Shown in pieces: positions 3,674 to 57,733 of a stretch of DNA of 64,000 nucleotides (positions within the stretch are counted from its first letter, which is position 1; each line of letters starts with the position of its first letter). The position numbers and the translations under genes are program-made. A model generated the notes under the pieces. That model did not search any database. It saw only the letters and a program-made list of their open reading frames with translations, and was not told where the DNA came from. Location of the stretch: assembly GCA_025455005.1 (NCBI GenBank), contig JALONH010000014.1:1-64000 (forward strand), given 5' to 3'. Source of the stretch: Cytophagaceae bacterium. Lineage in GTDB: Bacteria; Bacteroidota; Bacteroidia; Cytophagales; Cytophagaceae.

Positions 3674-6600
3674 TTATTTTCCAATCAATATAAAAGCGCC
3701 CCATAACGATGGGTCTGCGTATTTATTCAAAATTTGCAATTTAGCCTGCAAAAACGCTGTATGTTTAGAAGCGCCTTTCATCCACTTTGTATAAAAAGAT
3801 AACATCAATTCTTTTGTAACCGCATCGTTTACTTTTATTAAACTAACCATGACACTCTCTGTCCCTGCTATCTGAAATGCTCTTGGCAAACCAAATAATC
3901 CTTCGCCCATGCGAATATCTCCCAGACCGGATTCACAAGCCGACAATACAACTAGCCTCGTAGCATTCAACGGTAATTGTAACGTCTCAAACGACGTCAG
4001 TACACCAGGGGCTTTGTTGATGGAGCTGACACCCTGTTCCATCAATCGTCCACCATCGTACAGTAAAATCCCCGTTCTCCAATACGGATTGTCGATTAAC
4101 GTGGCCTCACTATTCCGTGGCTGCGATGGTATATAAAATCCATGTGTTGAAAAGTGTATAATCTGATTGTAGTGTAAAGAGTCCATAGCCGTCTCTACAG
4201 CTACCGTATCCAGAAGTAATGCGGCATGCCAACCTATGGAGGTTAAATACTCATATATGCCTTTTACTTCCTCTTCTGATCCGGGCAGCTGAGGTATCTG
4301 ACTTTTATCTGTTTCTTGTGCATAATATTTAGGATTCCCCACCAATGTAATACCTAAATCCGTCGAAACCGGCACTTCTTTCCCTTGTGCGTCTAAAATA
4401 CTTCCAAGTCGAATCACCTGTTTATCCTGTATCCAAAATCGAGTGGGTGTTGTTCGGAATACTTCCGGATTTATTCGATGGTATACTCCATCTGCAATTA
4501 AATATACTGTCTTGGCAGAAGGCATAGAAGCATCTACCGCCTTCCAATAGCGTTGGTAGGACAATGTATCGGTTAAATTATTTTTCCAGGTGTTGGTATA
4601 GTATTTATACCATTTGTTTTCCAAGGTATTTCCTGTTCCCAAAGGAACGGGATGCGGGGTGGTTTCTTTACCATTTAAAACAAAAGCGGTATACCGGACA
4701 GTGTCACTCATTACATAGGAAAACTGAGGGTAGGTTACGATAACCACCAAACTCTGATTTGGTTCCAATGTTTGGTGAAAGGCTTTAGAGCTTGTATAGG
4801 AAATCTTTTGAAAGTGCTTTTTATGATCAGCTGAAAATTGACTCAAGTTTTTTTCTAAACGTTCGATTTCCGCTTCTATCTGAGGAATAGAAAGGGCTTG
4901 CTCTTTCAGTTCTTTAGTGCTGAGGGAATAAGCATAGGCCAATATTTCTCGTTGTTCTTGCCATTGTTCGTTCCAAGCAGTTACAGTTGAATCTGCTTTA
5001 ACTAAATTCGATAAACTTACTTTCTTGCTATGTTCTAATAATAGGGTGGACGTTTGTTGATGTATATCCATCACATCATACCAATCCTCTGCTTTTATTC
5101 CATGAGTTGCTCTTACATAAATATAAAAATCAATGTGTTCTTTTTGTTGATTCCAGAATCCGGATTTACTCCGTTCACTTAATACCGGGAATACCTTTTC
5201 TACATATACTTTTGTAGCTTCTATACATTCTGCACTCTTTTTGAATGCTTCCTCTTTATTACCTTTAATCCATGCTATTTGAGCTAACTTACCATTGGCC
5301 TGACAGTAGAGTGGATGTTCTTTGGAATAGGTTTGAGCCAGTATTTGTTGCGTTTTACTATAGGATTGTTGAGCAGCATCCGGCTCTTGAAGCTGTTGGT
5401 GTACTTTCCCCAGTTGATACAAAACGCGTGCCTGTGCATAATCGTCTTTGTGTCGCAAGCGCCAAATCTCTAATGCTGTAGAATAAAGTTGTTTCGCTAT
5501 CGTATATTTTTTTAACAACAACGCGATATAAGCAGCTCGCTCGATGTGGTGGACATAAAATAAGGAGCTGTCTCCCATTTCATCTCGAAGGGTTGTTACA
5601 CTCTTAATAACTACTTCTGATAAAGAATCCGCTGACATTCGATGGGTGTTCGATTGTTCTAGTCGACGTTGAATCCAAGTCCAATAGGTATCTATATATG
5701 TTAAAGAATGTTTTCCTAAATCAGTTGCAATAGCCACCGCTTCTTTACTGAAGGGTAAACATTTTTCAATATCACCTAAGTTATAATAATAAGTAGATAC
5801 TAGACGGTTGGAATAAAGTGCTATTAAACAATTCGACGGTAGGTTAGCCAATCCATCTTCTACTATTAATACATCAGCATGTACGGATGCAAAATTGCCT
5901 TCTTGAATAGCATTCTCTATAACATGTGTTCGATATTGCCAAGCAAGTGTAGGATGTAAAGGAAAGTTTTGATGAAAATTTGTGATGGCATCCTTAAGAA
6001 TATTTTCCGCTCTATTTAAACGCCCTTGGGCTTTCCATACATAATACACGCCCAGTGAAGTAGGCATATGAGCGCTTTGTATTTTTTTTAATTCTGACGT
6101 TAAGCTTACTTGTTCGTTTTTATTTCCAATGTTAAAGGCCTTAACGATTCGTTGATTAAGTGTTTCTTGATATAAGTCCGGGTGAAACATCCACCATCGT
6201 TGGGATAAAGAGGCGTTGAATTTTGTATCCTTTACTTTGTCCCATTGTCCCATATACATATACACTGTAACATATTGAGCCTTTAGCCATTCTTCTAGTA
6301 CTAATTCATCTGCACCAGTACCTATCGTATCTGCTTGTATTGAAATTTGATTAATGGGTGTCGTGTAGATTAAAAAAAAGCAAGCCTCTTTATACATTTT
6401 ATAAAGGGGGGTGTGATAGCCGATTGATTTAAAAAAAAGGGACGTTTCCTGAGGCTTGGATTGGTGTAGGTTGCCGTTGTAGAGGACCTCATAAGAAAAT
6501 TTTTCTATTTGAATCTCTTGGGTCAATAGGGAGTTCCCTTGAAGATTTTGAGCCGTCTCTAGTAATTCTTGCCAAAGGGCTGTCGTTGCTAGAGGAGCAA

Positions 6601-7684
6601 AGCGACTATTCCACCGAATTTGATAATGAATTAAATTCAGAGCGGCAGCATGATGGTTCGATATTGTTCCTGATTTTTTTATTGCATCAAGAGTTGTCCC
6701 TGCTCTTGCCCATTGTTCTGTGTGTAGGTAATAGTCTACATCTGATAATTGATTCAACCAATAATAGAAATTGTTTTTAGGGAAATAAGCATACAGTGCC
6801 GCATCAATCTCTTTATTATAGTATAAAGCTTCTTCTTTTTTAGATTGTTGTAATAATGTGTAATATAATTTTTTCCCAATTTCAGTCACCTTATAATGAT
6901 GCCCGCTGTAAAGTTGTCTGCTGTATCCTAAGGCTTTTTTATACGCGTGTTCAGCATTTGACCATTCTTTCTTTTGAGAATATAAAAGACCGGTATAATA
7001 ACTACAAATCACTTGATCTTCTGTCGTGAGCTGCACTGCAGGGTCATGATACAACTGTTCGATTCTGTTGTTGACTTCTATCCAATAGCCCATAGAAGCG
7101 TAAACCTCCATGCGTTGGATTTGGAGTTGAGTATACAATCTGGTTTTCCAAGAAGTGTGAAGGGATAAAAGCCGTTGGGACAACTCGTCGAGTTGAAGAA
7201 GCGCCGCTGCTCTGTTATGTTTGGCTTGTAGAACGTGGATGTCCAACAACACACCATACAAAAAGGCTTCCGAGTTAAGGGCATACGCTTCTTTCGAAAA
7301 TTTATGCATCCATTCTTCTATGTAGAGCAAATTTCCTTGATGAGCCAGAACCTCTTGTAAAATAGATGTAGCAATTATATATTCTTTTTCCGGAAGACTA
7401 TGCGGCGCTATTGCAGCGGCTTGTTTCCAATCAGCCGTAGCTTGTTCCATGTTCCCTAAAAAATAATGGGCCATGCCTTTATATAGTTGAAGGATATACG
7501 CCTCTTCCGTTCTCCCTTTTTTTACAACTGATTTTTGGTTCTTTGTTATGTAAAATAAAGCCGTTTTGTATTCCCCTTTATTCACGGTTTGTTGAATAAA
7601 TACAGTAGAAGGGCCTACAGCAAACGTATAGATTCCCCAAAAATGAAATACGAGTGTTGGAAACCAAAATTTAATGAAAGCCAT
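3674..7684 (-). CDS. TPR-repeat protein with C-terminal CHAT protease domain
   Basis: About 1336 residues from the start chosen here. After a hydrophobic N-terminus that looks like a signal peptide (MAFIKFWFPTLVFHFWG), most of the chain is alpha-helical with tetratricopeptide-like repeats (for example around the AYKKALGYSRQLY and LYSTALEIWRLRH segments). The last ~350 residues are a CHAT (caspase-HetF-associated-with-TPR) domain with the catalytic His in IHFSTHGFY (about H1181) and Cys in LSACESGLG (about C1250), so the peptidase dyad is intact. A longer start at 7735 exists, but the ATG at 7684 gives the better signal peptide. It overlaps the upstream PorP/SprF gene by 14 bases and is the last gene of the operon. 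Whether it is really exported, and its substrate, are unknown. Confidence 0.85.
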   Translation of the reverse strand: MAFIKFWFPTLVFHFWGIYTFAVGPSTVFIQQTVNKGEYKTALFYITKNQKSVVKKGRTEEAYILQLYKGMAHYFLGNMEQATADWKQAAAIAPHSLPEKEYIIATSILQEVLAHQGNLLYIEEWMHKFSKEAYALNSEAFLYGVLLDIHVLQAKHNRAAALLQLDELSQRLLSLHTSWKTRLYTQLQIQRMEVYASMGYWIEVNNRIEQLYHDPAVQLTTEDQVICSYYTGLLYSQKKEWSNAEHAYKKALGYSRQLYSGHHYKVTEIGKKLYYTLLQQSKKEEALYYNKEIDAALYAYFPKNNFYYWLNQLSDVDYYLHTEQWARAGTTLDAIKKSGTISNHHAAALNLIHYQIRWNSRFAPLATTALWQELLETAQNLQGNSLLTQEIQIEKFSYEVLYNGNLHQSKPQETSLFFKSIGYHTPLYKMYKEACFFLIYTTPINQISIQADTIGTGADELVLEEWLKAQYVTVYMYMGQWDKVKDTKFNASLSQRWWMFHPDLYQETLNQRIVKAFNIGNKNEQVSLTSELKKIQSAHMPTSLGVYYVWKAQGRLNRAENILKDAITNFHQNFPLHPTLAWQYRTHVIENAIQEGNFASVHADVLIVEDGLANLPSNCLIALYSNRLVSTYYYNLGDIEKCLPFSKEAVAIATDLGKHSLTYIDTYWTWIQRRLEQSNTHRMSADSLSEVVIKSVTTLRDEMGDSSLFYVHHIERAAYIALLLKKYTIAKQLYSTALEIWRLRHKDDYAQARVLYQLGKVHQQLQEPDAAQQSYSKTQQILAQTYSKEHPLYCQANGKLAQIAWIKGNKEEAFKKSAECIEATKVYVEKVFPVLSERSKSGFWNQQKEHIDFYIYVRATHGIKAEDWYDVMDIHQQTSTLLLEHSKKVSLSNLVKADSTVTAWNEQWQEQREILAYAYSLSTKELKEQALSIPQIEAEIERLEKNLSQFSADHKKHFQKISYTSSKAFHQTLEPNQSLVVIVTYPQFSYVMSDTVRYTAFVLNGKETTPHPVPLGTGNTLENKWYKYYTNTWKNNLTDTLSYQRYWKAVDASMPSAKTVYLIADGVYHRINPEVFRTTPTRFWIQDKQVIRLGSILDAQGKEVPVSTDLGITLVGNPKYYAQETDKSQIPQLPGSEEEVKGIYEYLTSIGWHAALLLDTVAVETAMDSLHYNQIIHFSTHGFYIPSQPRNSEATLIDNPYWRTGILLYDGGRLMEQGVSSINKAPGVLTSFETLQLPLNATRLVVLSACESGLGDIRMGEGLFGLPRAFQIAGTESVMVSLIKVNDAVTKELMLSFYTKWMKGASKHTAFLQAKLQILNKYADPSLWGAFILIGK

Positions 7685-8564
7685 ACGACACTTGAATTTC
7701 ATTAGTACCAAAATTAGAGCCCTGTACTGCTCCAAAAGAATATTCGTATCGGTATCCTATTTTAAATTTAGGGCTTACTGAAATCCGCGTAAATAATCCC
7801 AATGCCTCATTTGTATTACCGCCTATGCCTGCTGTAAACGTTTGATTGAATTCAAGACCTATATTTAACGCTGCATATTGAAAACCGGAAGTATAATAGG
7901 AGTATAAGACAGAAGGCAAAAGCGCCATGTATTCCGTAATGTACCATTTTGTACCGGCTAGTGCATAATAATTGCGCGACAGCGTACTACTTTGTTGTTG
8001 GCTATCATAAAAAAGTTTTGAAGGATCAAAAGAAAACAAATCGGTGCACGACAAGCCGAGAAAGGTATTGTTTTTTTTATACCAAACCCCGGCTCCAATT
8101 TTATATACATACCCGCGTTGTTTATAGCCCTGAATGGTAGGGTCTGCAGGGTCCCAAATAAAGGCATTACTTAAACCAACATCTGTGTATTTTATTGCTC
8201 CATTCAAACCAAACTGAAGGTATGCTCCATTCTTCATGGGGACGCGATAGCTTACGTTTAAAGTTGTTTGCAAATCCATATATCCTCCAATAGTATATCG
8301 TTGGACCCATCCACCGATGCCAATATTTTTTCCTAAAGGACCATCTGCTGCTATTAGTTGTTGTTGCGGAGCGCCGGGATAACTGGTCCATTGATTCCGA
8401 TATAATGCATCTGCAGTTAATCGACTTTGACTGCCTGCTGCAGCCGGATTATAGTAGCCTATTGAATGCTGGAACTGACCTATCCAAGGGGTTGGTTGAG
8501 CAACACCCCATCGGCATATCCCGATGGTTAAACAGATGCTTAGTAAATAAGTGTGGAATGACAT
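7671..8564 (-). CDS. PorP/SprF-family type IX secretion-associated outer-membrane protein
   Basis: A 297-residue protein with a signal peptide (ending near VAQPTPW) and the family hallmark start QFQHSIGYYNPAAAGSQ followed by ALYRNQW, and a C-terminal beta-rich body with alternating aromatic strands ending GFH. PorP/SprF proteins are outer-membrane proteins tied to the type IX secretion system; the founding SprF is needed for surface display of the type-B-CTD adhesin SprB. The gene directly follows (5 bases) a type-B CTD protein gene, the classic pairing, so it probably serves that substrate. It overlaps the TPR-CHAT gene. Confidence 0.88.
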   Translation of the reverse strand: MSFHTYLLSICLTIGICRWGVAQPTPWIGQFQHSIGYYNPAAAGSQSRLTADALYRNQWTSYPGAPQQQLIAADGPLGKNIGIGGWVQRYTIGGYMDLQTTLNVSYRVPMKNGAYLQFGLNGAIKYTDVGLSNAFIWDPADPTIQGYKQRGYVYKIGAGVWYKKNNTFLGLSCTDLFSFDPSKLFYDSQQQSSTLSRNYYALAGTKWYITEYMALLPSVLYSYYTSGFQYAALNIGLEFNQTFTAGIGGNTNEALGLFTRISVSPKFKIGYRYEYSFGAVQGSNFGTNEIQVSYGFH

Positions 8565-8569
8565 GAGGA

Positions 8570-10498
8570 TTAACGAACCAATTGAATGTACCCTTTTAAA
8601 CTTCTTCGAACGGATTGATCACTGTTGTATTCTTTAAAAATATAGAAATACACTCCGGTTGGTAAAGGCTTATCTGCTTTATCCGTTCCTGTCCAGTTGT
8701 TCCGATAATTTTCTTTTTGAAATAAGGTTTCGCCAAAACTATCAAATACAATGATTTCATTTCGTCGATTAAAATTTGTGTATCCAATCACTAAGGCGTC
8801 GTTTTGCTCGTCGCCATTGGGCGACATGGCTTCGTTTGCTTTTAACGGCTCTTCTTCAACAATATCGTTTGCTTGAATTATAATGTATGCAGGGGCTGAA
8901 ATCAACCCTGTTTCATCCCAGACTACGTATTCGATGGAATCTATTCCTAAAAATCCTACAAAGGGAGAAAAGGTAAGTAAGCCATCGGATGTGACAATAA
9001 AACTGCCGACACTTGGAATATTTTTTCGAACATCCAGTACCGGAGTGGAAGGATCCAAGTCTACACGGTAACTCGAATTTAACTGTAGAGAAGCCGTAAG
9101 GCCTATGTCATTACCCACAATGGCTTGATCAACACGAGAACCTACATCAAATCGAATGGTGTCTCGTAGCGCCAAAGGTTGAAGGGGTGTAGGGTAAATT
9201 CGTAAATGGATAGTGTCGGAGGCAGCAAAATAATTATTGTTTTCGAATGCACGAACCAACACGATGACCTCCCCGGCGGTTTTGGGCTGAATCCAACCGG
9301 AAGGTTGTATGGAAGCGATATTGGTATCACCGAATATTTGGTATTCTAAAGTACCGTCGTAATTCGTAACAGTGAACAAACGAAAGGGAGGCGCGCTTGC
9401 TACAGCACCTCTTCTTTCTAAACGTACTATCGGGTTCGTCTTTTGAATAAATAAAAAAGCTGTGGTAGAGTCTGCCGGGTAAGGGCCGACGGCGGCTTTC
9501 CGGGCTTTTACTTCAATAGTATCGACACAGGTATAAGTAAGAATACCTGAGGGTGACAGCGTAGCACAGGCGCTTGGTTGCACCAGTTCGTAAGTAATCG
9601 TACCGGGAACCGGCGAAGTAGCCAACATTTGAACCGGAGGACCATTATGTTGTGTAGCCTGGTTTGGGAATGTTAAGTTGGTTTTGGGGATGCAATTCCG
9701 AATATTTATCCATACAGTATCGATTCCGAGAGGGCATGCTAAAACATTCCGTTTTGATTCTACCGTAACATACGTTCGCGAAGTTAACAACTCTACAGCG
9801 CTAGGTTTGTAGGTAACTTCTATACCGGAGTTGTTTGGGAAAAAACTTCCATTAGGATGTCCCGGTCTCCAGGTAAATCCATCCGTATACCCTTTAGGAG
9901 CGCCAATTAAAAAGGATACCGAGGCTACTTGATCTTTACAAAAATTTATATCAGGGCCTGCATCCGGTAGGAAGTTATCTGTAAAAAATAATGTGACGGT
10001 ATCTGCAGAAAGTTCTCGTACGGTAGCCACTCGAATTTTAGCGTAACCACGTTCTATATCTTGAGCATCCGGTATATATTCAGAAAATAAAGTGCCCGGT
10101 GAATTAACTATACCGGAAGACTGATTGGGGATGATCGTCCAGCTTACTCGAGTATCCGGAAGAGACCGAACCAGAGTAGCGTTTAGATTTATTTTAGTAG
10201 TGCCTACATTTAACTTATTGCTACAAACGGTTTGGTCCAGTGGAGCAACCACCCATTCCGGACTTTCAAAAACGATTTTGGTGACATCCGTTGTTTTAAA
10301 TATACGACCACTGCTTTGAGTCAATTGATATACTACTTTACCGTTACCAAAATCGAGGTGTGTTAATTCGGCAAATGTTTTGACATCGTATTGAGTACTT
10401 ACAGATTCTGTATGTTCAATAATCATAGAATCTGTTTGCGCTAAAAGTGATGCACTAACTAAGCAGCCGATGAAAAGGAGAATTAATTTTTGATGCAT
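8570..10498 (-). CDS. Secreted protein with Ig/cadherin-like repeats and T9SS type-B sorting domain
   Basis: The 642-residue protein has a signal peptide (ending about SLLAQTDSM), then beta-rich modules: Ig-like/PKD-type segments around APLDQTVCSNKLNVGT and DAGPDINFCKDQ, a bacterial Ig/cadherin-like section, and a C-terminal gliding-motility-associated (CHU_C, type B) domain from SPNGDEQNDALVIGYTNF to the end (GYIQLVR). Such CTDs send proteins through the type IX secretion system to the cell surface. Its first ~70 residues carry a degenerate version of the N-terminal module seen in the two upstream secreted proteins. It overlaps the FISUMP gene by 16 bases. Confidence 0.87.
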   Translation of the reverse strand: MHQKLILLFIGCLVSASLLAQTDSMIIEHTESVSTQYDVKTFAELTHLDFGNGKVVYQLTQSSGRIFKTTDVTKIVFESPEWVVAPLDQTVCSNKLNVGTTKINLNATLVRSLPDTRVSWTIIPNQSSGIVNSPGTLFSEYIPDAQDIERGYAKIRVATVRELSADTVTLFFTDNFLPDAGPDINFCKDQVASVSFLIGAPKGYTDGFTWRPGHPNGSFFPNNSGIEVTYKPSAVELLTSRTYVTVESKRNVLACPLGIDTVWINIRNCIPKTNLTFPNQATQHNGPPVQMLATSPVPGTITYELVQPSACATLSPSGILTYTCVDTIEVKARKAAVGPYPADSTTAFLFIQKTNPIVRLERRGAVASAPPFRLFTVTNYDGTLEYQIFGDTNIASIQPSGWIQPKTAGEVIVLVRAFENNNYFAASDTIHLRIYPTPLQPLALRDTIRFDVGSRVDQAIVGNDIGLTASLQLNSSYRVDLDPSTPVLDVRKNIPSVGSFIVTSDGLLTFSPFVGFLGIDSIEYVVWDETGLISAPAYIIIQANDIVEEEPLKANEAMSPNGDEQNDALVIGYTNFNRRNEIIVFDSFGETLFQKENYRNNWTGTDKADKPLPTGVYFYIFKEYNSDQSVRRSLKGYIQLVR

Positions 10499-11229
10499 CG
10501 GATGGGTAGGTAATAGTTTCGAATTCTAAAGGTTTGGCTAAAGGTAGCCGTATTGTATTCAACAGAAAAAGTAAGGGCGCTTGGTGCCATAGCACTTGGA
10601 GTAGACGACCAAAAAGAGGCTTTGTTATTTACCCCTTCAAAGATTGCCCCATTAAAAAATCCCGAAGGTAGTGCAGCAAATCCGGATGAGTTAATAGCAC
10701 CACTGTTCGGTGGCGTCCAAAACAATAAAAGATTATCTTTTAATGCACCGCCTTCATTCCCAGGCGCTAAAGCGGCTAAAGTAGTTTGTAGCGTATTAAT
10801 ATCGGTCTGAGATGGCACTCTCCAACCAATAGGGCATACGTTTTTAGTAGTTTGAATAGCGACAAATCCGTTGTACAGCGTTCCATAATTAGGACTATAA
10901 GCTGTAGAATCTAAATTATACCAAGTGTAGGCTCCTGAGTTAAAGTATTGAGGTAACAAATCTATATCCAATTCTTTAAGAATAGGCGTTCCATCATTAT
11001 ACAAGTGGGTGCGCAGGTTCTCTGCCATCCAAGTTTGAGTACCAATAGTTACGGTCGGGTAACTATAACCGGCGATATCAGTTACTTTAGGGCCTTCGGC
11101 AAAGGTTATACTGTCGATTTCTTTAGTTGGTATTTTAACCAGTTGTCCCGATCTTTTATAAACATATAGGGTATCGGCGTAGGAATAAACAGAATAAAAC
11201 AGAACGAATAATAAAATAGAAAATTTCAT
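10483..11229 (-). CDS. Secreted FISUMP-domain protein
   Basis: 248 residues: signal peptide (first ~18), a short module TLYVYKRSGQLVKIP...EIDSITF, then a Fibrobacter succinogenes major paralogous (FISUMP) domain with the typical TIGTQTWMAENLRT, CPIGWRVPSQTDI and WSSTPS...PIRCIKN blocks, where the final block is a lectin-like/formylglycine-like fold end. FISUMP proteins are surface or secreted proteins of uncertain binding function. It lies 2 bases downstream of the DUF1566-like gene and overlaps the next by 16, so it is translationally coupled within the operon. No own sorting domain is visible. Confidence 0.85.
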   Translation of the reverse strand: MKFSILLFVLFYSVYSYADTLYVYKRSGQLVKIPTKEIDSITFAEGPKVTDIAGYSYPTVTIGTQTWMAENLRTHLYNDGTPILKELDIDLLPQYFNSGAYTWYNLDSTAYSPNYGTLYNGFVAIQTTKNVCPIGWRVPSQTDINTLQTTLAALAPGNEGGALKDNLLLFWTPPNSGAINSSGFAALPSGFFNGAIFEGVNNKASFWSSTPSAMAPSALTFSVEYNTATFSQTFRIRNYYLPIRCIKN

Positions 11230-11231
11230 AT

Positions 11232-11843
11232 TTAAAATCGGCGGATGGGGCGAACGGGATTTGTATCACTTTTTAAATTAATAAGTGGTCCAATGGATGT
11301 TCCAACTTTAGCGTTTACAGTATTGGATTCTTCAGAAGACCAAAAATCACTTGCTAAACTAATATTCAATTTCGTTCTAATATCAACTGTAGGATAAAAC
11401 AATAAAATTTCATTTGAATTGGGCAAGTACCAATCTGAATATCCTCCAAACACATAATCAAAACAGGCTTTAGCTGCGCCATTATCACTACACGAACCAA
11501 CAATAACATTTGTATTCATGAAACCATCCCCTATGGCAGAAAGTGTCGCACTAGGAAAACTGGAGCCACTACATCCCCAAGAATAGTTTCCAATGATATC
11601 CGCCGGTGCGGCTTCCAGATAGCGCCATCCATTGGTATACAAACCCTTATCATAAATGATATACCCACCGGCGGGACCTACATCCCCTACTACATAGGCT
11701 TTTCTAAATCGGATGCTGTCCACCTCTGAAGCTATAAACTTTTCTATTGATCCATTTTTCAAATGCACAATCATGGTATCTTGTGCTTGTGCCCATTTCC
11801 ACTGAAAAAGTATTAACGCACTTAATAAAAAGTATTTAAACAT
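11232..11843 (-). CDS. Secreted DUF1566-like (lectin-fold) protein
   Basis: 203 residues with a signal peptide (ending near WAQAQ), an N-terminal module (IVHLKNGSIEKFIASEVDSI) shared with downstream genes, then a domain with GPAGGYIIYDKG, GGYSDWYLPNSNEI, FWSSEES and a final VRPIRRF, which is the pattern of DUF1566/Lcl C-terminal proteins related in fold to FISUMP. The family is extracellular and often adhesive; no specific ligand can be inferred. First gene of the five-gene operon running to 3674; a promoter element lies 24 bases upstream. Confidence 0.8.
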   Translation of the reverse strand: MFKYFLLSALILFQWKWAQAQDTMIVHLKNGSIEKFIASEVDSIRFRKAYVVGDVGPAGGYIIYDKGLYTNGWRYLEAAPADIIGNYSWGCSGSSFPSATLSAIGDGFMNTNVIVGSCSDNGAAKACFDYVFGGYSDWYLPNSNEILLFYPTVDIRTKLNISLASDFWSSEESNTVNAKVGTSIGPLINLKSDTNPVRPIRRF

Positions 11844-11866: not shown

Positions 11867-11874
11867 CAAATATA
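11867..11874 (-). promoter_or_regulatory. Promoter of the five-gene secretion/CHAT operon
   Basis: The minus strand reads TATATTTG, an exact TAnnTTTG -7 element, with TTGG about 20 bases upstream as a possible -33 element (consensus TTTG). It would start transcription about 15 bases before the ATG of the DUF1566-like gene. Best promoter candidate in this part of the window. Confidence 0.5.
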
Positions 11875-11919
11875 AATTAATTCTGTACCAACCACCAAGG
11901 AGCCCTTGAAATAATTTAG

Positions 11920-50575: not shown

Positions 50576-53500
50576 TTATTGTTTTAATACTTTTATTACT
50601 TCTTGATGTGAACTGTTACTTACTTTAATTAAATACATTCCCTTAGAATAAGAAGTCCCCAGTTCGATGCTTTTGGATGGGTCATGTGATGAAATGTATT
50701 CTACACGTTGCCCGCTCATATCCGTTATCTCTATTGTAACAGCATCCGAAATACCCGAAATGGATAAGGTGATACCCTCTGTGAAAGGATTGGGATACGA
50801 AGTCAATAACCAGCTGTTATCAGAAAGAACAATAACATGACTTTCTTTTGTTGTCCCATCGGTATCGACCATTAGTAATCGGTAATAGGTAGTGCCTTTG
50901 AAGGGTCTACTATCCGTAAATTGATACGATTTAATCGATCCGGCTGATCCATCTGCTGATACTCGTCCTATTGACTCAAATAGTATACCATCATCTGACC
51001 GTTGTATTATATAATGAGAGAAATTGATTTCATTTGACGACTCCCAACCTAGTGTAGCCCAATCGCCCGTCTTTCTTACTCTTAACGAGAGTAAATCTAC
51101 CGGTAATACACATAAAATGGTTGCTCGAACCGGTATACGGTCGCATGGTCCGGGTCCATTCGTGAACTCCCATCTATAGATATATGGATACCAATTGTTC
51201 GTACCCCCTACCCATGACGGGGAAGTTCCTGTAATACTGATATACCCACCGGATTCTGTAAAAGGATAGAAGGCATTGTCACGATTGTAATACAAATTTC
51301 CGGTTGTTCCGATAGCATCTAAGAAATATCCATTCCCAATTGTTAATGGAAAATCAAGTGGGATTCTATGTACACCGGCACTTGAAACTGGTACTGTTCG
51401 TGTATGAATTTGTGTGCCTGCACTATTGGAAACATTGATTCGAACATTTTGAGGACCTGCAGCATACACAGTAACATATCGTAATGTACATACTCTTAAA
51501 ACATTAAATCGGAACCTATAATTGTCTGCTCCATTATTTGTATGATTGGCATCTACCCATTGCGATAAGTTACCAAATGTAGTGTCGATAGCGCCTACCG
51601 TTCCTCCATAAAAAGAGACGTCTGCTACATAATAGGTTTTAGATTCATTTAAGGACGGCGTCGTATAAGCTGTTCCCGTTGTAAGCAAATTGCCTACAAC
51701 CGGTGCATCGTACCACTGATAGGTTTTGCCGGCTATCGTATTCGTGATGCTTAAGTTTACTGGGCCTACTCCACAACGAGCACCATCAACTGGTGTAGCA
51801 GCGGCGGTTGATGAAACCACCAAGATATCTGTTCTTTGAGCGCAAGACCCTCCTGTAACTCTTAATTCATATGAACCTGGTGAGGATATTCTTAAGAAAG
51901 ACCTTGTTTCGTCTGTTAATAATGCGCCGTTACGGTACCATGTAAATATAGCATTAGAGGGCAATAATGAACGAAGTGTATCCTGGGCAGGCGAACATAG
52001 TTGCTTATCAGGGCCTAGAGAAAATGTTAAATCCGTTTGAATTAAAACTTGATCACTTTGCAAACAACCTAGAGAATCTACAACAACTGTAATAGTCCCT
52101 CCAACCATTGTGTTATACATGGGTGATGTAGCGCCCACCACTCTAACATTATTTACAAACCAAGAAAATTGACGATTGGGGTGTGACCCAATTCCAGAAT
52201 GTAAAAACTTAGAAGATCCATTCAAACACAAAACATCATCTGGCCCCAAGGCTGGTGCAGTGCAAGGACATGGAGTGTAAAAAGTACCTGGGGAACCCTT
52301 GCGACAACCATCTCTCCAACTTGATGCTGCGTTTAGATCAAATGAGGGATTTATTAAATCTAATGTCGTACCTCTACCATTAGCAAGGAAAGGCCAAGGC
52401 GCTACATCGTTATAGGTCATTTGTAAACGAAGGTTTCCAATCCGATCGTATATCGAAATAGTTTCACCATCATTACTTAAATTAAAACCCAGGGGACCAA
52501 TCATTGCGCTTACCGTGGGATGAACAGCTTTAAACTTTATCGTATCTGATACCAATACCAAATACTGGCCAACCCCCAAAGTAGTTCCATTGGGTATAAC
52601 ATAGGCGTTATACAACTTAGAATCTTTTACTACCCAACCTGAAAGATTTACTGGTGCAGAACCGTTGTTAAACAGTTCAAACCAATCCCCTGAGTTGCTG
52701 TTATTAGCAGCAACTGTATCCGACTGATAATTGATTTCAGTTATAACTAATCGAGGAACGGACGTTGTAGCCGAAAAGTTTGCAGTGAAAGAAGCGGTAG
52801 ATCCTCCAAAGGTAACCGTGTTGGAGCTGGAAGTAGACGATGGTAAGGTTACACCAGAAGAAGACCAATTTGAAAATACATAACCGGGGTTTGGGTAAGC
52901 CGTGATGGTTACCGGTACGCCTCGGTAATAACTTCCTGTCCAAGGTAAGTTACAAGGCGCTACTGTGCTAATCACTACCCTACCGGCGCCGGCGGGTAAT
53001 GCGTTAATGGTTACTGAAGTTTGACCGGACAATCCAAAATACGATTGAGCATGTGCACGCGCAGCCGGTATTCTATTGTCTACAAACGTTCTTAATGCTG
53101 AAACGTTAGAACTCCAAGAGGCATAGGATCCTCCTACCGACGAGCCCCATCGATTGGTATGACGTGTAATCTCAGCATCTATTTCCATTCTTAATTCATC
53201 TATTTTTGCTTTAACATTACTAGCTGTATAAATCGTATTTAGTAAATCTGCATACCGGTTGATAAATGCATTTCTAAATTCTGTATTACTTAACAGCTTT
53301 AATAACATTGGTGAATGAACGCTTCGGGTGTCTGTTAATACCCGATTAATTTCGTTGTGCGTTGCTCCATAAAAACTAAACATTCCCCAAGCGAAGTCCG
53401 TGTCATGATAGATAAACCTCCATTTGCTTCCTACTTTATTCGGTTGCCAGAACTTTATATTATTATGTGGCCAATCCCAGTTGGTATGCACCAACTCGGC

Positions 53501-55570
53501 AATCATATAATCAATATAGTTGTTAATATCCAACATTTCTTTGACGGCTGTATAGTTAGCAGAAATCGTCATGTCATTATTTTGTATAAAATTAATCATA
53601 CTTAAAAATTCTGCATTTGATCCTTTTTTGGGATCCCCGTCAAATTCACAATAATCTACATCTCCGTCTCCTTGGCCAAAATTGTTTTCAAAATAAGTAT
53701 CATCGATACGCTCTCGTAAAGTATGTATACCCCAATATTGCCCATTTATAAATACTACGACAGGCGTATATCCTGCAAAGTCAACGTTATTTTCAATACA
53801 ATTAACACTGTTTAATAATCGATGATTAACTGCATCCCGTAATAGTGTCCCTTCAAAATCATTCCCGGCATTTCGTAACGTAATGGTTTCAAAATTGGTG
53901 TGTGTCGATTTTTTAGGTTCATCGAAAAATGGATATTCAAATGTTTTTTTACCATATTCTTCACCTGCCCTCAATTGAATACTTTTCATATCTCGCATTC
54001 TCGACCATCCTCCTAATATTTTTACCCCTGCATCTTGTTCTATTTGAAACACTTTTCCTTTATCAAAAAACTCTACATGAATTTCTCTGGTCCAATCTTG
54101 CCAATAGTTATAACAATAATGTGGGTCATCCGGACATTGAGACGTAACAGACGTTGGGCCATCCACATAAATCCCTGTATTAGTATCAAAGAGGTTGGCC
54201 GGAGCGGTAGAAATAGAAAACACCGCTAGCGTAACATTCTGATTGATAAAGTATGTATTAGTTTCAAAACTAGATGTAATAAAGCCGGTGTTAAAGGTGG
54301 CTGCCCGTACCACAGTATTGGCAGTAATGGATATAGGACCGGTATAAGTAGGCGACGAAGCCGTTGGCTTAGAACCATCGGTAGTAAACCGAATTGTAGA
54401 AGAAGGATTAGATCTAGTTAAGGTAAGAGATTGAACACCATTATAAAAACCTGCTGGTAATGAAAACACTACCGGATCTGTCCAATACCCATTAAATGCT
54501 GTAGAGGATCCATTGGATGCATTTGGAGTAGCAGGACTTAATAAACGTAAAGTAGCGGAACCGTTAGGAAAACGACCAAAGGTATTGTCTGCTTGCAAAG
54601 CCGGAATACTTACCGAATTGATTAATGTTCCTGTATTATCATATAGTTGAACCGCTTGACCACCGGCTTTTAGTTTAAAATTTGTGTGAAGATTATTTGT
54701 CACAACCGGAGGGGTGAACCAAGATGGTAAAGACTGATAATTCATAGACGCATCCGCAATCCCTGCTATTAAAAATGGTCGCATAGATAAATCAGAAGAA
54801 GTTGCTGATCTATTATGAGTTTCAATAGCTAATACGTTGTTACCTGTAACAAGTAAAGAGGTAAATACAGAGGATGGTATACTATACATTTCAGGATTTC
54901 CACCGGAATACATTAATGCTTCTCTATCTGATTCTGCCGGAGTATTGAATGCCGGAACTGGTGTACTCATGTTTCCTCTAGCTATTTCTTGTCCATTCAG
55001 ATACGCGATAAATCCATCGTCGTAGTCCATATAAAGTGTAAGGGATTTGATTTGATTGGGGTCTACAACGGTAAAAGTACGTCGAGCATACAACGAAATA
55101 TAGGGGCCTGCTACGACTGTTCCATCATCTCCATCGGCATATCCCAGCCCACCGTTGCCTGTATTCCAAGCTCCATCATTAAAACTCAACGTTTTCCAGT
55201 TCGGGATATTTGCCGTAGGTACTAGGTACTTCCAACTATTGCTTTCTAAAACTAAACTTTCAAAATGGTCGATATAATCTACCCTGTTTTTACCGGATGC
55301 AAAGAGTGTCAAGTATCCATTCGCCGGTATAGATATAGAAGGGAAGGTCCATTTCGAAGGTAGGAGTGGATTGTCGGTTATTCTATAACCGGCTAGATTC
55401 ACCGCACTGCCGCCACTATTAAACAATTCTATCCAATCTTCATAGTCCCCATCATTATCCGGATACGTAGTATAATTATTAGTACTTACTTCATTTATGA
55501 TTACTTGATTAAATCCGGATAAAGTGGAGGAAAGGACCACTACTAAGGCAAACATCCATTTTTTCATCAT
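50576..55570 (-). CDS. CotH-kinase protein with lamin-tail domains and T9SS type-A sorting signal
   Basis: 1664 residues with a signal peptide. Order: a lamin-tail domain (INEVSTNNYTTYPDNDGDYE), a beta-sandwich region, a chitobiase/CHB_HEX_C-like domain (TIRFTTDGSKPTASSP), then the CotH kinase domain (WGIHTLRERIDDTYFENNFG, WDWPHNNIKFW with the Asn, WRFIYHDTDFAWGMF with the metal-binding Asp), an InlB-like repeat, a second lamin-tail domain (LVITEINYQSDT), Ig-like parts (LGPDKQLCSPAQ) and a type-A CTD (SYPNPFTEGITLSI ... GMYLIKVSNSS). CotH proteins are secreted protein-kinase-like enzymes. It is the last gene of a six-gene operon. Confidence 0.87.
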   Translation of the reverse strand: MMKKWMFALVVVLSSTLSGFNQVIINEVSTNNYTTYPDNDGDYEDWIELFNSGGSAVNLAGYRITDNPLLPSKWTFPSISIPANGYLTLFASGKNRVDYIDHFESLVLESNSWKYLVPTANIPNWKTLSFNDGAWNTGNGGLGYADGDDGTVVAGPYISLYARRTFTVVDPNQIKSLTLYMDYDDGFIAYLNGQEIARGNMSTPVPAFNTPAESDREALMYSGGNPEMYSIPSSVFTSLLVTGNNVLAIETHNRSATSSDLSMRPFLIAGIADASMNYQSLPSWFTPPVVTNNLHTNFKLKAGGQAVQLYDNTGTLINSVSIPALQADNTFGRFPNGSATLRLLSPATPNASNGSSTAFNGYWTDPVVFSLPAGFYNGVQSLTLTRSNPSSTIRFTTDGSKPTASSPTYTGPISITANTVVRAATFNTGFITSSFETNTYFINQNVTLAVFSISTAPANLFDTNTGIYVDGPTSVTSQCPDDPHYCYNYWQDWTREIHVEFFDKGKVFQIEQDAGVKILGGWSRMRDMKSIQLRAGEEYGKKTFEYPFFDEPKKSTHTNFETITLRNAGNDFEGTLLRDAVNHRLLNSVNCIENNVDFAGYTPVVVFINGQYWGIHTLRERIDDTYFENNFGQGDGDVDYCEFDGDPKKGSNAEFLSMINFIQNNDMTISANYTAVKEMLDINNYIDYMIAELVHTNWDWPHNNIKFWQPNKVGSKWRFIYHDTDFAWGMFSFYGATHNEINRVLTDTRSVHSPMLLKLLSNTEFRNAFINRYADLLNTIYTASNVKAKIDELRMEIDAEITRHTNRWGSSVGGSYASWSSNVSALRTFVDNRIPAARAHAQSYFGLSGQTSVTINALPAGAGRVVISTVAPCNLPWTGSYYRGVPVTITAYPNPGYVFSNWSSSGVTLPSSTSSSNTVTFGGSTASFTANFSATTSVPRLVITEINYQSDTVAANNSNSGDWFELFNNGSAPVNLSGWVVKDSKLYNAYVIPNGTTLGVGQYLVLVSDTIKFKAVHPTVSAMIGPLGFNLSNDGETISIYDRIGNLRLQMTYNDVAPWPFLANGRGTTLDLINPSFDLNAASSWRDGCRKGSPGTFYTPCPCTAPALGPDDVLCLNGSSKFLHSGIGSHPNRQFSWFVNNVRVVGATSPMYNTMVGGTITVVVDSLGCLQSDQVLIQTDLTFSLGPDKQLCSPAQDTLRSLLPSNAIFTWYRNGALLTDETRSFLRISSPGSYELRVTGGSCAQRTDILVVSSTAAATPVDGARCGVGPVNLSITNTIAGKTYQWYDAPVVGNLLTTGTAYTTPSLNESKTYYVADVSFYGGTVGAIDTTFGNLSQWVDANHTNNGADNYRFRFNVLRVCTLRYVTVYAAGPQNVRINVSNSAGTQIHTRTVPVSSAGVHRIPLDFPLTIGNGYFLDAIGTTGNLYYNRDNAFYPFTESGGYISITGTSPSWVGGTNNWYPYIYRWEFTNGPGPCDRIPVRATILCVLPVDLLSLRVRKTGDWATLGWESSNEINFSHYIIQRSDDGILFESIGRVSADGSAGSIKSYQFTDSRPFKGTTYYRLLMVDTDGTTKESHVIVLSDNSWLLTSYPNPFTEGITLSISGISDAVTIEITDMSGQRVEYISSHDPSKSIELGTSYSKGMYLIKVSNSSHQEVIKVLKQ

Positions 55571-55581
55571 AGAAACTAATT

Positions 55582-56247
55582 TTAAATACTTACTTTATAA
55601 TTTAATCCAACAATAAAGGAACGAATAGGATTGGATTCGTTGAACTCTCGTTGAAGCATATAGAACGGTTGTATTAAATGGTGTTGATTAATTTTATATT
55701 TCACACCAAATTCATACCGAACACGATTAAACTCATTTCTGTCATATTTGATTTGATAAAACAATTCTACTGCTGCATAGGGCTTCCAACGTCTATCCGT
55801 ATCATAACTTAAAGTAAATTGACCTCTTAAATAATTGCCGGGAGCCATCCAGTCTTCTGTCCGTTGTATGTCGGTATATTGTTTTTGAAATTGTAGGTAA
55901 TATTTTGTAACCCATTTCTTCCACTTGGTGTCATACGAAACTTTTATTTGAAGGCGGTGTCGCGTTTCAAACCTATCGGTAAAATCTGTTTTACTCGAGT
56001 AGCGATAATGTAATTCGCCGGACCAATGTTTATTGTAGGTATAGTTCATCCCTCCTTCTATATAAAATATTTCAAGTGCTGAAATATTTTGTCCTATTCG
56101 TGTTCCAAATAAAACTTCAGAAGACCAGTGTCTGGACCATTTTTTTTCTATCGTCACTCTATTCCACAACCGAAAATCATTGATTTGTGCTTGACCTGAG
56201 GAGGTAAGCATCCAAACGATTGTCGAAATGAATAACTGCTTTTTCAT
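55582..56247 (-). CDS. DUF2490-family outer-membrane protein
   Basis: 221 residues with a signal peptide (ending about GQAQ) followed by antiparallel beta strands with aromatic girdles (FRLWNRVTIEKKWSRHWSSE, ELHYRYSSKTDFTDRFETRH, KYYLQFQKQYT) and a C-terminal strand ending GLNYKVSI. This is the DUF2490 8-12-strand barrel pattern. Function unknown. Starts immediately before the stop-adjacent DUF4956 gene, with no intergenic gap, and 11 bases upstream of the CotH gene. Confidence 0.8.
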   Translation of the reverse strand: MKKQLFISTIVWMLTSSGQAQINDFRLWNRVTIEKKWSRHWSSEVLFGTRIGQNISALEIFYIEGGMNYTYNKHWSGELHYRYSSKTDFTDRFETRHRLQIKVSYDTKWKKWVTKYYLQFQKQYTDIQRTEDWMAPGNYLRGQFTLSYDTDRRWKPYAAVELFYQIKYDRNEFNRVRYEFGVKYKINQHHLIQPFYMLQREFNESNPIRSFIVGLNYKVSI

Positions 56248-56982
56248 TTAGGCATAATAAAAGATTTCTACTTGAGCTACATCGCGTAGAAAATCTATTT
56301 TATTAATTGAGACTTTATAGATATTTAAACCTGTTCTTGTTTTTAAATCTTCAATCAAGGCATTTTCGTTTTCCGGTTTTATCAATTGAATATTTTCATA
56401 TAAAACGATTTTTGAAAATTGTCTTTTGAAAATAACATTGCCGTCCAACAAATAGGTCATACAGATGATAGCTGCACATATTACAGCTAACATTTTTGGT
56501 TCTAGGTTAATAGCGCAAATCAGGCCCACCGCGATAACAATAAAAATATACGTCATGTCTTTTGTCGATATGCCTTCTGTCCGATAACGCAACATAGAGA
56601 ACACGGCAAACAAACCAAAAGCAGCTCCCATAGATAGCTTTACTTGATTCATCACGTAGGTGAGTATGAAAATGATAATATTGAATATAAAAAAGGTAAA
56701 TAGTATTTCACGTTTGTGATAATTTGGATAGTAGATAAGTCCAATAATAATTAATGTGGTTACAATACTTGCACCAAATCCAATTGCGAATTGAAGGTTT
56801 AATTCTGCTATGTCTTCTTTTTTATCTTTATCTTTTTTCTTTTTCTTTTTTTCTGAATACTCTTCTTCCATTTCAGAAGAAAACGACTCTTGAGCAAATA
56901 CACAAACACCTGTTCTCTCCGGAACGAATACCATGGCGCCCACCATACACATAAAAATGATCACTACTTTAGACATACACAT
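56248..56982 (-). CDS. DUF4956-family membrane protein
   Basis: 244 residues: N-terminal hydrophobic segment, a lysine-rich acidic-basic linker (EEEYSEKKKKKKDKDKKED, about residues 40-60), then five predicted membrane helices (about 65-190) and a soluble C-terminal domain (LIEDLKTRTGLNIYKVSINK). DUF4956 proteins often sit beside VTC-domain genes. They may form a membrane partner or channel for polyphosphate synthesis; that is inference. It overlaps the VTC gene by 14 bases. Confidence 0.85.
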   Translation of the reverse strand: MCMSKVVIIFMCMVGAMVFVPERTGVCVFAQESFSSEMEEEYSEKKKKKKDKDKKEDIAELNLQFAIGFGASIVTTLIIIGLIYYPNYHKREILFTFFIFNIIIFILTYVMNQVKLSMGAAFGLFAVFSMLRYRTEGISTKDMTYIFIVIAVGLICAINLEPKMLAVICAAIICMTYLLDGNVIFKRQFSKIVLYENIQLIKPENENALIEDLKTRTGLNIYKVSINKIDFLRDVAQVEIFYYA

Positions 56983-57733
56983 TCCCCTTCAGTTTGTTGA
57001 TATAATGAAATTTAGGTTTAAAATTATTTTGTTTTAACTCCGGGTAGAGAGAAGCAACTCCTATACAATATTTACTGAACCCGCCTTCTCTAATGTGGAG
57101 GGCTTTCATAATGTGAGAAAAAGTTGAACGCATAACTTTCCCTTGCTTTAACTCCGCTATAACTAAAAAGCTATAATCCACTGCCTTATTTTCCCAGTGC
57201 ATTTGCAAGCCTACATCAATCGTCAACCGTTCGCTATGGTTGTTGTTCACTAATGTAATTCGATTGTAATTAACCCAAATTACCGGTTGAATCCGCTCGG
57301 ATGTTACTCCTGTTTTATTTTCTATAAATTCTGCTTCTTTCTGGTGCGCCTCAAAGAACTGATTAATTTCAGTAGTTTTAATTCTTTCTTTAATTGTTCT
57401 GCCCTTACTGTTTTTAAACTTTATTTCTAAAAACTGAATAGCTGACTCTACGTATTTTCGTGCACGAACTTTATAGCGATTTAATTTTTTGGTTTGATGG
57501 CGGTGGTAAAATTGAAAATCCGGAGTATCAAAATATAAGGTTTCATACCGACTTTGACGATTTCCCTCCACTTCTAATACACGAAACTCCTCTTTTAATT
57601 GCTCTAAAATAGTAGGTAGTTGCGCTGCAGCAAACACGAACTTTGTATCCGTTCGGTCCATAAGCTTTACAGCATCCATTTCAGCTAAGGTGATGGGAGT
57701 GTAGTGTTGTAATATCGTATGGATGTCTACCAA
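56969..57733 (-). CDS. VTC-domain polyphosphate polymerase
   Basis: 254 residues with the VTC fold: MDRTDTKFVFAAAQL, YETLYFDTPDFQFYHRHQTK, NRYKVRARKY with the Arg/Lys tunnel residues, FLEIKFKNSKGRTIKERI and VIAELKQGK. These basic and acidic tunnel positions match the catalytic domain of eukaryotic Vtc4 polyphosphate polymerase. No membrane segment. A cytoplasmic enzyme that may make polyphosphate from ATP and, with DUF4956, act at the membrane. Gap to the preceding gene is 3 bases. Confidence 0.85.
   Translation of the reverse strand: MVDIHTILQHYTPITLAEMDAVKLMDRTDTKFVFAAAQLPTILEQLKEEFRVLEVEGNRQSRYETLYFDTPDFQFYHRHQTKKLNRYKVRARKYVESAIQFLEIKFKNSKGRTIKERIKTTEINQFFEAHQKEAEFIENKTGVTSERIQPVIWVNYNRITLVNNNHSERLTIDVGLQMHWENKAVDYSFLVIAELKQGKVMRSTFSHIMKALHIREGGFSKYCIGVASLYPELKQNNFKPKFHYINKLKGNVYV

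Follow-up and report, generated by a model that had tools for sequence, protein, structure and literature searches.

A TPR-CHAT protein that probably takes the place of PorE in one PorP lineage of the Cytophagaceae and their relatives

Proteins of the PorP/SprF family are being studied as carriers that decide where surface proteins of the type IX secretion system (T9SS) end up, namely on the gliding track (SprF) or at the cell wall (PorE). In P. gingivalis, PorE, PorP and PG1035 form a complex in which PorE binds PorP and ties it to peptidoglycan, and the one type-B protein studied there keeps its C-terminal sorting domain (CTD) in the PorP complex (PMC9143113). Similarly, five operons of F. 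johnsoniae encode a PorE homologue with a type-B substrate and a SprF-like shuttle, and probably serve static anchoring (PMC12618676). SprF, by comparison, carries a Cys-X-Cys motif in its C-terminal tail that links it to the moving gliding track (PMC12635249).

Three further systems are relevant because they contain caspase-clan folds. Gingipains (peptidase family C25) are exported caspase-clan peptidases of Bacteroidota that have type-A T9SS signals, act outside the cell and contain no TPRs. In DdvA, a transmembrane anti-sigma factor of Myxococcus, the TPR-CHAT portion is placed in the periplasm. This single protein (PDB 8rot, 8rw5) also has a cytosolic anti-sigma part, involves no PorP or type-B substrate, and suggests by its example that CHAT folds can be used in envelope signalling. 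Finally, Csx29, the TPR-CHAT protein of Craspase (type III-E CRISPR), has a TPR solenoid followed by a caspase/separase-like CHAT domain with a His-Cys dyad; it is cytosolic and bound to Cas7-11 and RNA, and a bound partner activates it by way of the TPR region (PMC10028731).

The locus described here lies in a 64,000-nucleotide stretch of DNA (the window) from a 2.9-Mb genome of the Cytophagaceae. Between positions 11843 and 3674 on the minus strand, all five ORFs of the first-pass annotation were confirmed in place and strand (Table 1). In 5′ to 3′ order they encode an Lcl_C-like protein, a FISUMP protein, a type-B T9SS substrate with a CHU_C domain, a PorP/SprF protein and a TPR-CHAT protein, and they are separated by a 2-base gap, a 16-base overlap, a 5-base gap and a 14-base overlap. 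The last of these values follows from the porP stop at 7671 and a CHAT start codon at 7684. The longest CHAT ORF begins with TTG at 7735, but the ATG at 7684, which yields 1336 aa, is supported by homologues with the same porP overlap that begin MALIKK or MALIKS (here MAFIKF).

Table 1. Coordinates of the operon features within the window.
Feature	Position	Strand	Basis or remark
Promoter-like site TTG-N21-TATATTTG	11867..11898	(-)	just upstream of first gene
203-aa exported protein, weak Lcl_C (lectin-like) match below cut-off; accessory	11232..11843	(-)	profile search
248-aa FISUMP (Fib_succ_major) protein; accessory	10483..11229	(-)	E 5e-32, TIGR02145
642-aa type-B T9SS substrate, Ig-like repeats	8570..10498	(-)	PF13585 E 2e-20, Big_9, TIGR04131
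CHU_C type-B sorting domain, residues 554-642	8570..8839	(-)	Pfam and NCBIfam
297-aa PorP/SprF shuttle barrel; ends right after barrel	7671..8564	(-)	PF11751, TIGR03519
1336-aa TPR-CHAT protein, ATG start	3674..7684	(-)	ORF table, Pfam
Signal peptide-like N-terminus MAFIKFWFPTLVFHFWGIYTFAVG, weak cleavage site	7613..7684	(-)	homologues MALIKK...AHA/Q, MALIKS...ASA/Q
All-helical TPR solenoid, residues 22-660	5705..7621	(-)	AlphaFold2 model pLDDT 73, 32 helices
CHAT (caspase-clan) domain, residues 1043-1336	3677..4558	(-)	Pfam; AlphaFold2 model pLDDT 80
Catalytic-type His1181 codon (STHG)	4142..4144	(-)	His in 20/20 PorP-linked, 92/93 of all CHATs aligned
Catalytic-type Cys1250 codon (SACES)	3935..3937	(-)	Cys in all CHATs aligned

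Bacteroidota promoters follow the consensus TTG-N17-23-TAnnTTTG. The sole minus-strand match to this pattern between 3600 and 12050 (8.45 kb) precedes the first gene of the cluster, and six matches occur in the whole window on both strands. A scan for sigma-70 promoters and terminators gave no excess of promoter sites, which were fewer than in shuffled sequences. The earlier proposal that these minus-strand genes, joined by overlaps or by gaps of 5 bases or less, form one operon is thus borne out by the measured junctions (+5 to -16 bases) and by the single promoter-like site ahead of the first gene.

The third protein is a type-B substrate by both profiles used (CHU_C, 72.9 bits against a cut-off of 27; TIGR04131, 41.9 bits against 35), and the fourth matches the PorP/SprF family strongly (PF11751, 161.8 bits against 22.3, E 3e-47; TIGR03519, 178.7 bits against 90.55). 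A SprA_N match in the same genome (E 5e-162, profile search) indicates that this genome therefore has a T9SS. The first two genes, however, were rejected as members of the module. Neither Lcl_C-like nor FISUMP genes were seen in the CHAT operons examined apart from this one, and the genome has a single FISUMP gene, so that the tie between two lectin-fold proteins and CHAT drawn in the first-pass annotation is not supported. These two proteins (window 10420-11843) have in common a short module that follows the signal peptide (D-T-hydrophobic, Gly, ...IDSITF or VDSIRF), which the start of the CHU_C protein resembles; no further ORF in the fetched CHAT loci matched the IDSITF/VDSIRF start pattern.

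Of 59 relatives, 44 have a CHAT homologue and 57 a PorP homologue. Profiles derived from the proteins of the window served to annotate the neighbourhoods of about 90 CHAT genes. A PorP gene immediately precedes a CHAT gene (~1340-1490 aa) on the same strand at 20 loci, which belong to 15 genomes, with gaps of -77 to +238 bases that are mostly below 90, and CHU_C is found further upstream at 19 of these loci. The CHAT gene is hence conserved beside the secretion genes, an outcome on which the first-pass annotation had staked its case, and the core of the module is three genes: the type-B surface protein, the PorP/SprF shuttle-anchor and the exported TPR-CHAT protein. Its hosts represent seven of the ten genera of the Cytophagaceae and two genomes of one other family in the order. 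They include Cytophaga aurantiaca DSM 3654 (G007) and a genome of the same genus (G012) that is probably C. hutchinsonii ATCC 33406, with the CHAT gene of its module at G012:C1:604600-608826. The genome of the window holds a second copy (L031) with CHU_C, PorP and CHAT proteins of 1556, 292 and 1397 aa and gaps of 11 bases. With 6 CHAT and 13 PorP genes among ~2,700, we estimate that about 0.03 adjacent pairs would arise by chance, against two seen. Chance adjacency and assembly artefact were rejected, as the 20 loci come from independent assemblies and G012 is a single contig. In one further genome, of Sporocytophaga (L103, G018:C9:304641-308847), the CHAT gene of the module is split into ORFs of 634 and 765 aa by a stop between the TPR and CHAT halves, and is either a pseudogene or a two-part protein.

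The members of the module also share their descent. Distances correlate between PorP and CHAT (Mantel r 0.91) and between PorP and the CTD of the surface protein (r 0.90), with none of 5000 shuffles as high, and between CHAT and the substrate CTD (r 0.87). All 20 CHAT-linked PorPs form one clade (support 100/99), whose two subclades match the two groups into which PorP-linked proteins fall in the CHAT tree (5 changes against a shuffled mean of 18.5). Where a genome has two modules, identity between the copies is 0.33-0.56 for CHAT and 0.37-0.47 for PorP, and either copy usually resembles its counterpart from a different genome more closely. By the PorP and CHAT trees, the module is inherited vertically and stable across genera rather than island-like.

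To examine the position occupied by the CHAT gene, the profile of CHAT-linked PorPs was run on 395 genomes of the class, and the best 29 loci outside the Cytophagaceae were inspected. CHU_C lies upstream at all of them. The gene downstream of PorP is PorE-like at all 28 readable loci (E 1e-43 or better), and CHAT is downstream at none of the 28. In two genomes (G012 and G002), other PorP genes are followed in this slot by TPR-PD40-OmpA or TPR-PD40 genes. Conversely, the 20 CHAT loci contain no PorE-like ORF within the operon, and only two distant matches. Because relatives have PorE-like genes in this slot and the CHAT operons have no PorE, the TPR-CHAT protein takes the place of PorE in one PorP lineage, a point that the first-pass annotation missed. 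In the PorP tree, the CHAT-linked clade is nested among PorE-linked PorPs, with moderate support at the deeper node (80/89) of a midpoint-rooted tree. PorE (TPR, β-propeller and OmpA) has thus probably been exchanged once for TPR-CHAT. At two other loci (L128:7039-9747, L140:2288-5686), PorP is followed by very large PorE-like genes in which several LysM domains are added to TPR-PD40-OmpA, and these look like another variant of the PorE slot.

The likeness to the described PorE operons is one of order, with a type-B substrate, a PorP/SprF-like shuttle and an exported TPR protein, as in PorE-PorP-PG1035 and Fjoh_3952-3951-3950. The third protein differs in kind. The N-terminal TPR region of PorE has its equivalent in TPR-CHAT (TPR families, helical model), whereas PD40 β-propeller and OmpA domains, both present in the PorE-like genes of relatives, gave no Pfam match, nor did any peptidoglycan-binding domain; the CHAT domain stands in their stead. 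In addition, the CHAT proteins mostly have ordinary Sec signals, unlike the lipoprotein-like signals of PorE. The barrel belongs to the same family as SprF and is likewise the shuttle of a type-B substrate. However, the Cys-X-Cys motif is absent from the window PorP, and none of the 20 CHAT-linked PorPs, this one included, has a Cys in its last 20 residues.

The family assignment of the fifth protein is clear, since an HMM search matched both CHAT (PF12770, 144.1 bits against a cut-off of 24, E 8e-42) and TPR families in the 1336-aa protein, as had been predicted. AlphaFold2 models were built from family alignments for residues 640-1336 and 22-660. The best structural matches of the N-terminal half are TPR proteins of many kinds. 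The CHAT half is most similar to Csx29 (Z 28.8 over 443 residues, rmsd 6.4), followed by separases (Z 24), DdvA (Z 22) and gingipains (Z 17). A sequence search of solved structures with the CHAT region gave weak matches only (Csx29, E 0.4; DdvA, E 2.3); the relation is therefore one of fold. The protein nevertheless differs from Csx29 in being exported, about twice as long and tied to an outer-membrane barrel.

The catalytic-type residues noted earlier are intact exactly where they were placed, and Cys1250 falls on the Cys of the ACET motif in an alignment with Csx29. In the CHAT tree, the copy from the window sits on a long branch, with a CHAT domain 33-40% identical to its relatives. It still keeps 44 of the 49 CHAT positions that are invariant in 17 others, which implies that it is under constraint.

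Export was assessed with a rule that required a basic start, a hydrophobic core, a small-x-small cut and no Pro after the cut. This rule is passed by 16 of 20 PorP-linked CHATs, 35 of 40 other long CHATs, 24 of 29 shorter CHATs and 23 of 24 PorPs, and by 241 of 613 other ORFs of at least 250 aa, which include many exported proteins. The four PorP-linked CHATs that fail have a hydrophobic start and are signal-like by eye. One of them is the window copy, which has no clean AxA site and a Pro after the best cut; the earlier reading of its N-terminus as a signal peptide therefore stands for the family and is weak for this member. Export was also thought unusual for CHAT, which is best known from the cytosol, but all six CHAT proteins of this genome have signal-like N-termini. 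Here CHAT seems to be a family of envelope rather than cytosolic proteins. Exported CHATs are widespread in the order and are not new as sequences, so the novelty is not export but replacement in the PorE slot. No T9SS sorting domain was detected by Pfam or NCBIfam, and the protein ends with its CHAT domain, in contrast to a gingipain-like cargo. A TPR-CHAT protein with a Sec signal and no such domain should stay in the periplasm.

Taken together, we propose with moderate confidence that TPR-CHAT replaced PorE as the periplasmic partner of one PorP lineage and contributes a caspase-fold domain gated by PorP. The surface protein would leave through SprA and be taken up via its type-B CTD by PorP, which would hold it on the cell surface. 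Like PorE, the CHAT protein, once exported by Sec, would bind PorP from the periplasmic side, with its TPR solenoid. The caspase-fold domain, with its His-Cys pair intact, would be idle or switched on according to whether PorP is loaded, empty or under pull, and once active might cut a periplasmic or membrane target. Gating by a partner is made plausible by the activation of Csx29 through its TPR region. In this way, an outer-membrane carrier of an adhesin-like surface protein may hold or control a periplasmic protease. Against this model, binding of PorE to PorP could use the β-propeller and not the TPRs, and CHAT has no propeller. The weak signal peptide of the window copy, the moderate support for nesting among PorE-linked PorPs and the many related CHATs without PorP also count against it. 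A more tentative extension, possible but short of probable, is that surface receptor or adhesin, barrel and periplasmic caspase-fold protease form one signalling unit, in which the surface state, relayed by PorP, switches the protease through its TPRs. If so, the exchange of PorE for a protease would turn a cell-wall anchor into an outside-in sensor.

In the main rival reading, the TPR-CHAT protein is a purely structural partner. Placed against PorP on the periplasmic side as a scaffold or plug, it would fix the surface protein in the stead of PorE and would not use its CHAT fold as a protease. Consistent with this role, it shares an operon slot with the non-enzymatic PorE, its modelled TPR solenoid is long, and the PorPs linked to it have no tail Cys to join them to the moving track, as static anchoring would require (PMC12635249, PMC12618676). 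We nevertheless consider it rather unlikely, as the protein has no peptidoglycan-binding domain to make it an anchor, and His and Cys are kept in 20 of 20 PorP-linked CHATs, even in the divergent window copy. Conservation of the dyad favours the PorP-gated caspase-like protease over the structural partner.

The first-pass annotation had suggested that CHAT, as an exported protease, might process or control the surface substrate. In this version CHAT would process or release the surface protein of its own operon, and co-transcription, joint descent with the substrate CTD and the precedent of gingipains agree with it. Processing of the surface protein is otherwise unsupported, and we regard it as improbable. 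Without a sorting signal CHAT should be periplasmic and not reach the surface, the type-B protein would exit via SprA, and the type-B CTD studied in P. gingivalis remains intact in its PorP complex (PMC9143113). Moreover, the surface proteins of CHAT operons vary widely in their domains (FG-GAP, DUF5122 propeller, GEVED, fn3 with PA14/GLEYA, Ig), which does not suggest one recognition site and favours a common readout from PorP over cleavage of the surface protein. A defence or death module, in which surface or envelope damage such as phage adsorption unleashes CHAT against the cell's own envelope, recalls CRISPR-linked CHAT proteases (Csx29, PMC10028731) yet is very improbable for a module of vertical descent whose ORF tables reveal no adjoining defence genes. 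The locus does not belong to a Craspase (Csx29) system, as the neighbours of the TPR-CHAT gene are CHU_C and PorP genes in place of Cas7-11 and a CRISPR locus.

Each part of the module belongs to a known family, and the combination of type-B protein, PorP and CHAT appears to be new. We found no description of it, and no paper joining the CHAT domain with type IX secretion or C. hutchinsonii, which is weak evidence of absence given thin coverage of the subscription literature. CHAT is mentioned along with periplasm and signal peptide in a paper that deals with diversity-generating retroelements, and a paper on CHAT proteins in a T6SS region of Bacteroides fragilis has no bearing on this module. 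With a protease-fold protein as a third type of partner, arising by exchange within the operon slot, the role of this slot becomes testable, and exported caspase-like proteins of Bacteroidota gain a genetic context outside defence.

Related CHATs of ~1400 aa without PorP are common in the order, which indicates that the CHAT protein does not need PorP. At Cyclobacteriaceae-type loci (L168, L180, L203 and others), they are often beside a gene pair of ~370 and ~710 aa (or one gene of ~1050 aa) and a ~470-aa gene with a DnaA-like start. This stable neighbourhood may point to an ancestral role. In another class, exported CHATs of ~900 aa have an exported protein of ~315-340 aa upstream at seven of seven loci (L035:3514-7167 (G000:C20), L060, L065, L072, L082, L101, L102). 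This partner starts QGCSDAGFC and mostly has an aromatic last residue, as outer-membrane barrels do; the single representative scanned had no Pfam match. The two proteins make up a second pair of CHAT and barrel-like protein, present in three families of the order. Elsewhere in the window (50576-57733), a CotH kinase protein with LTD, chitobiase-like and type-A sorting domains adjoins genes for a DUF2490 barrel, DUF4956 and a VTC domain.
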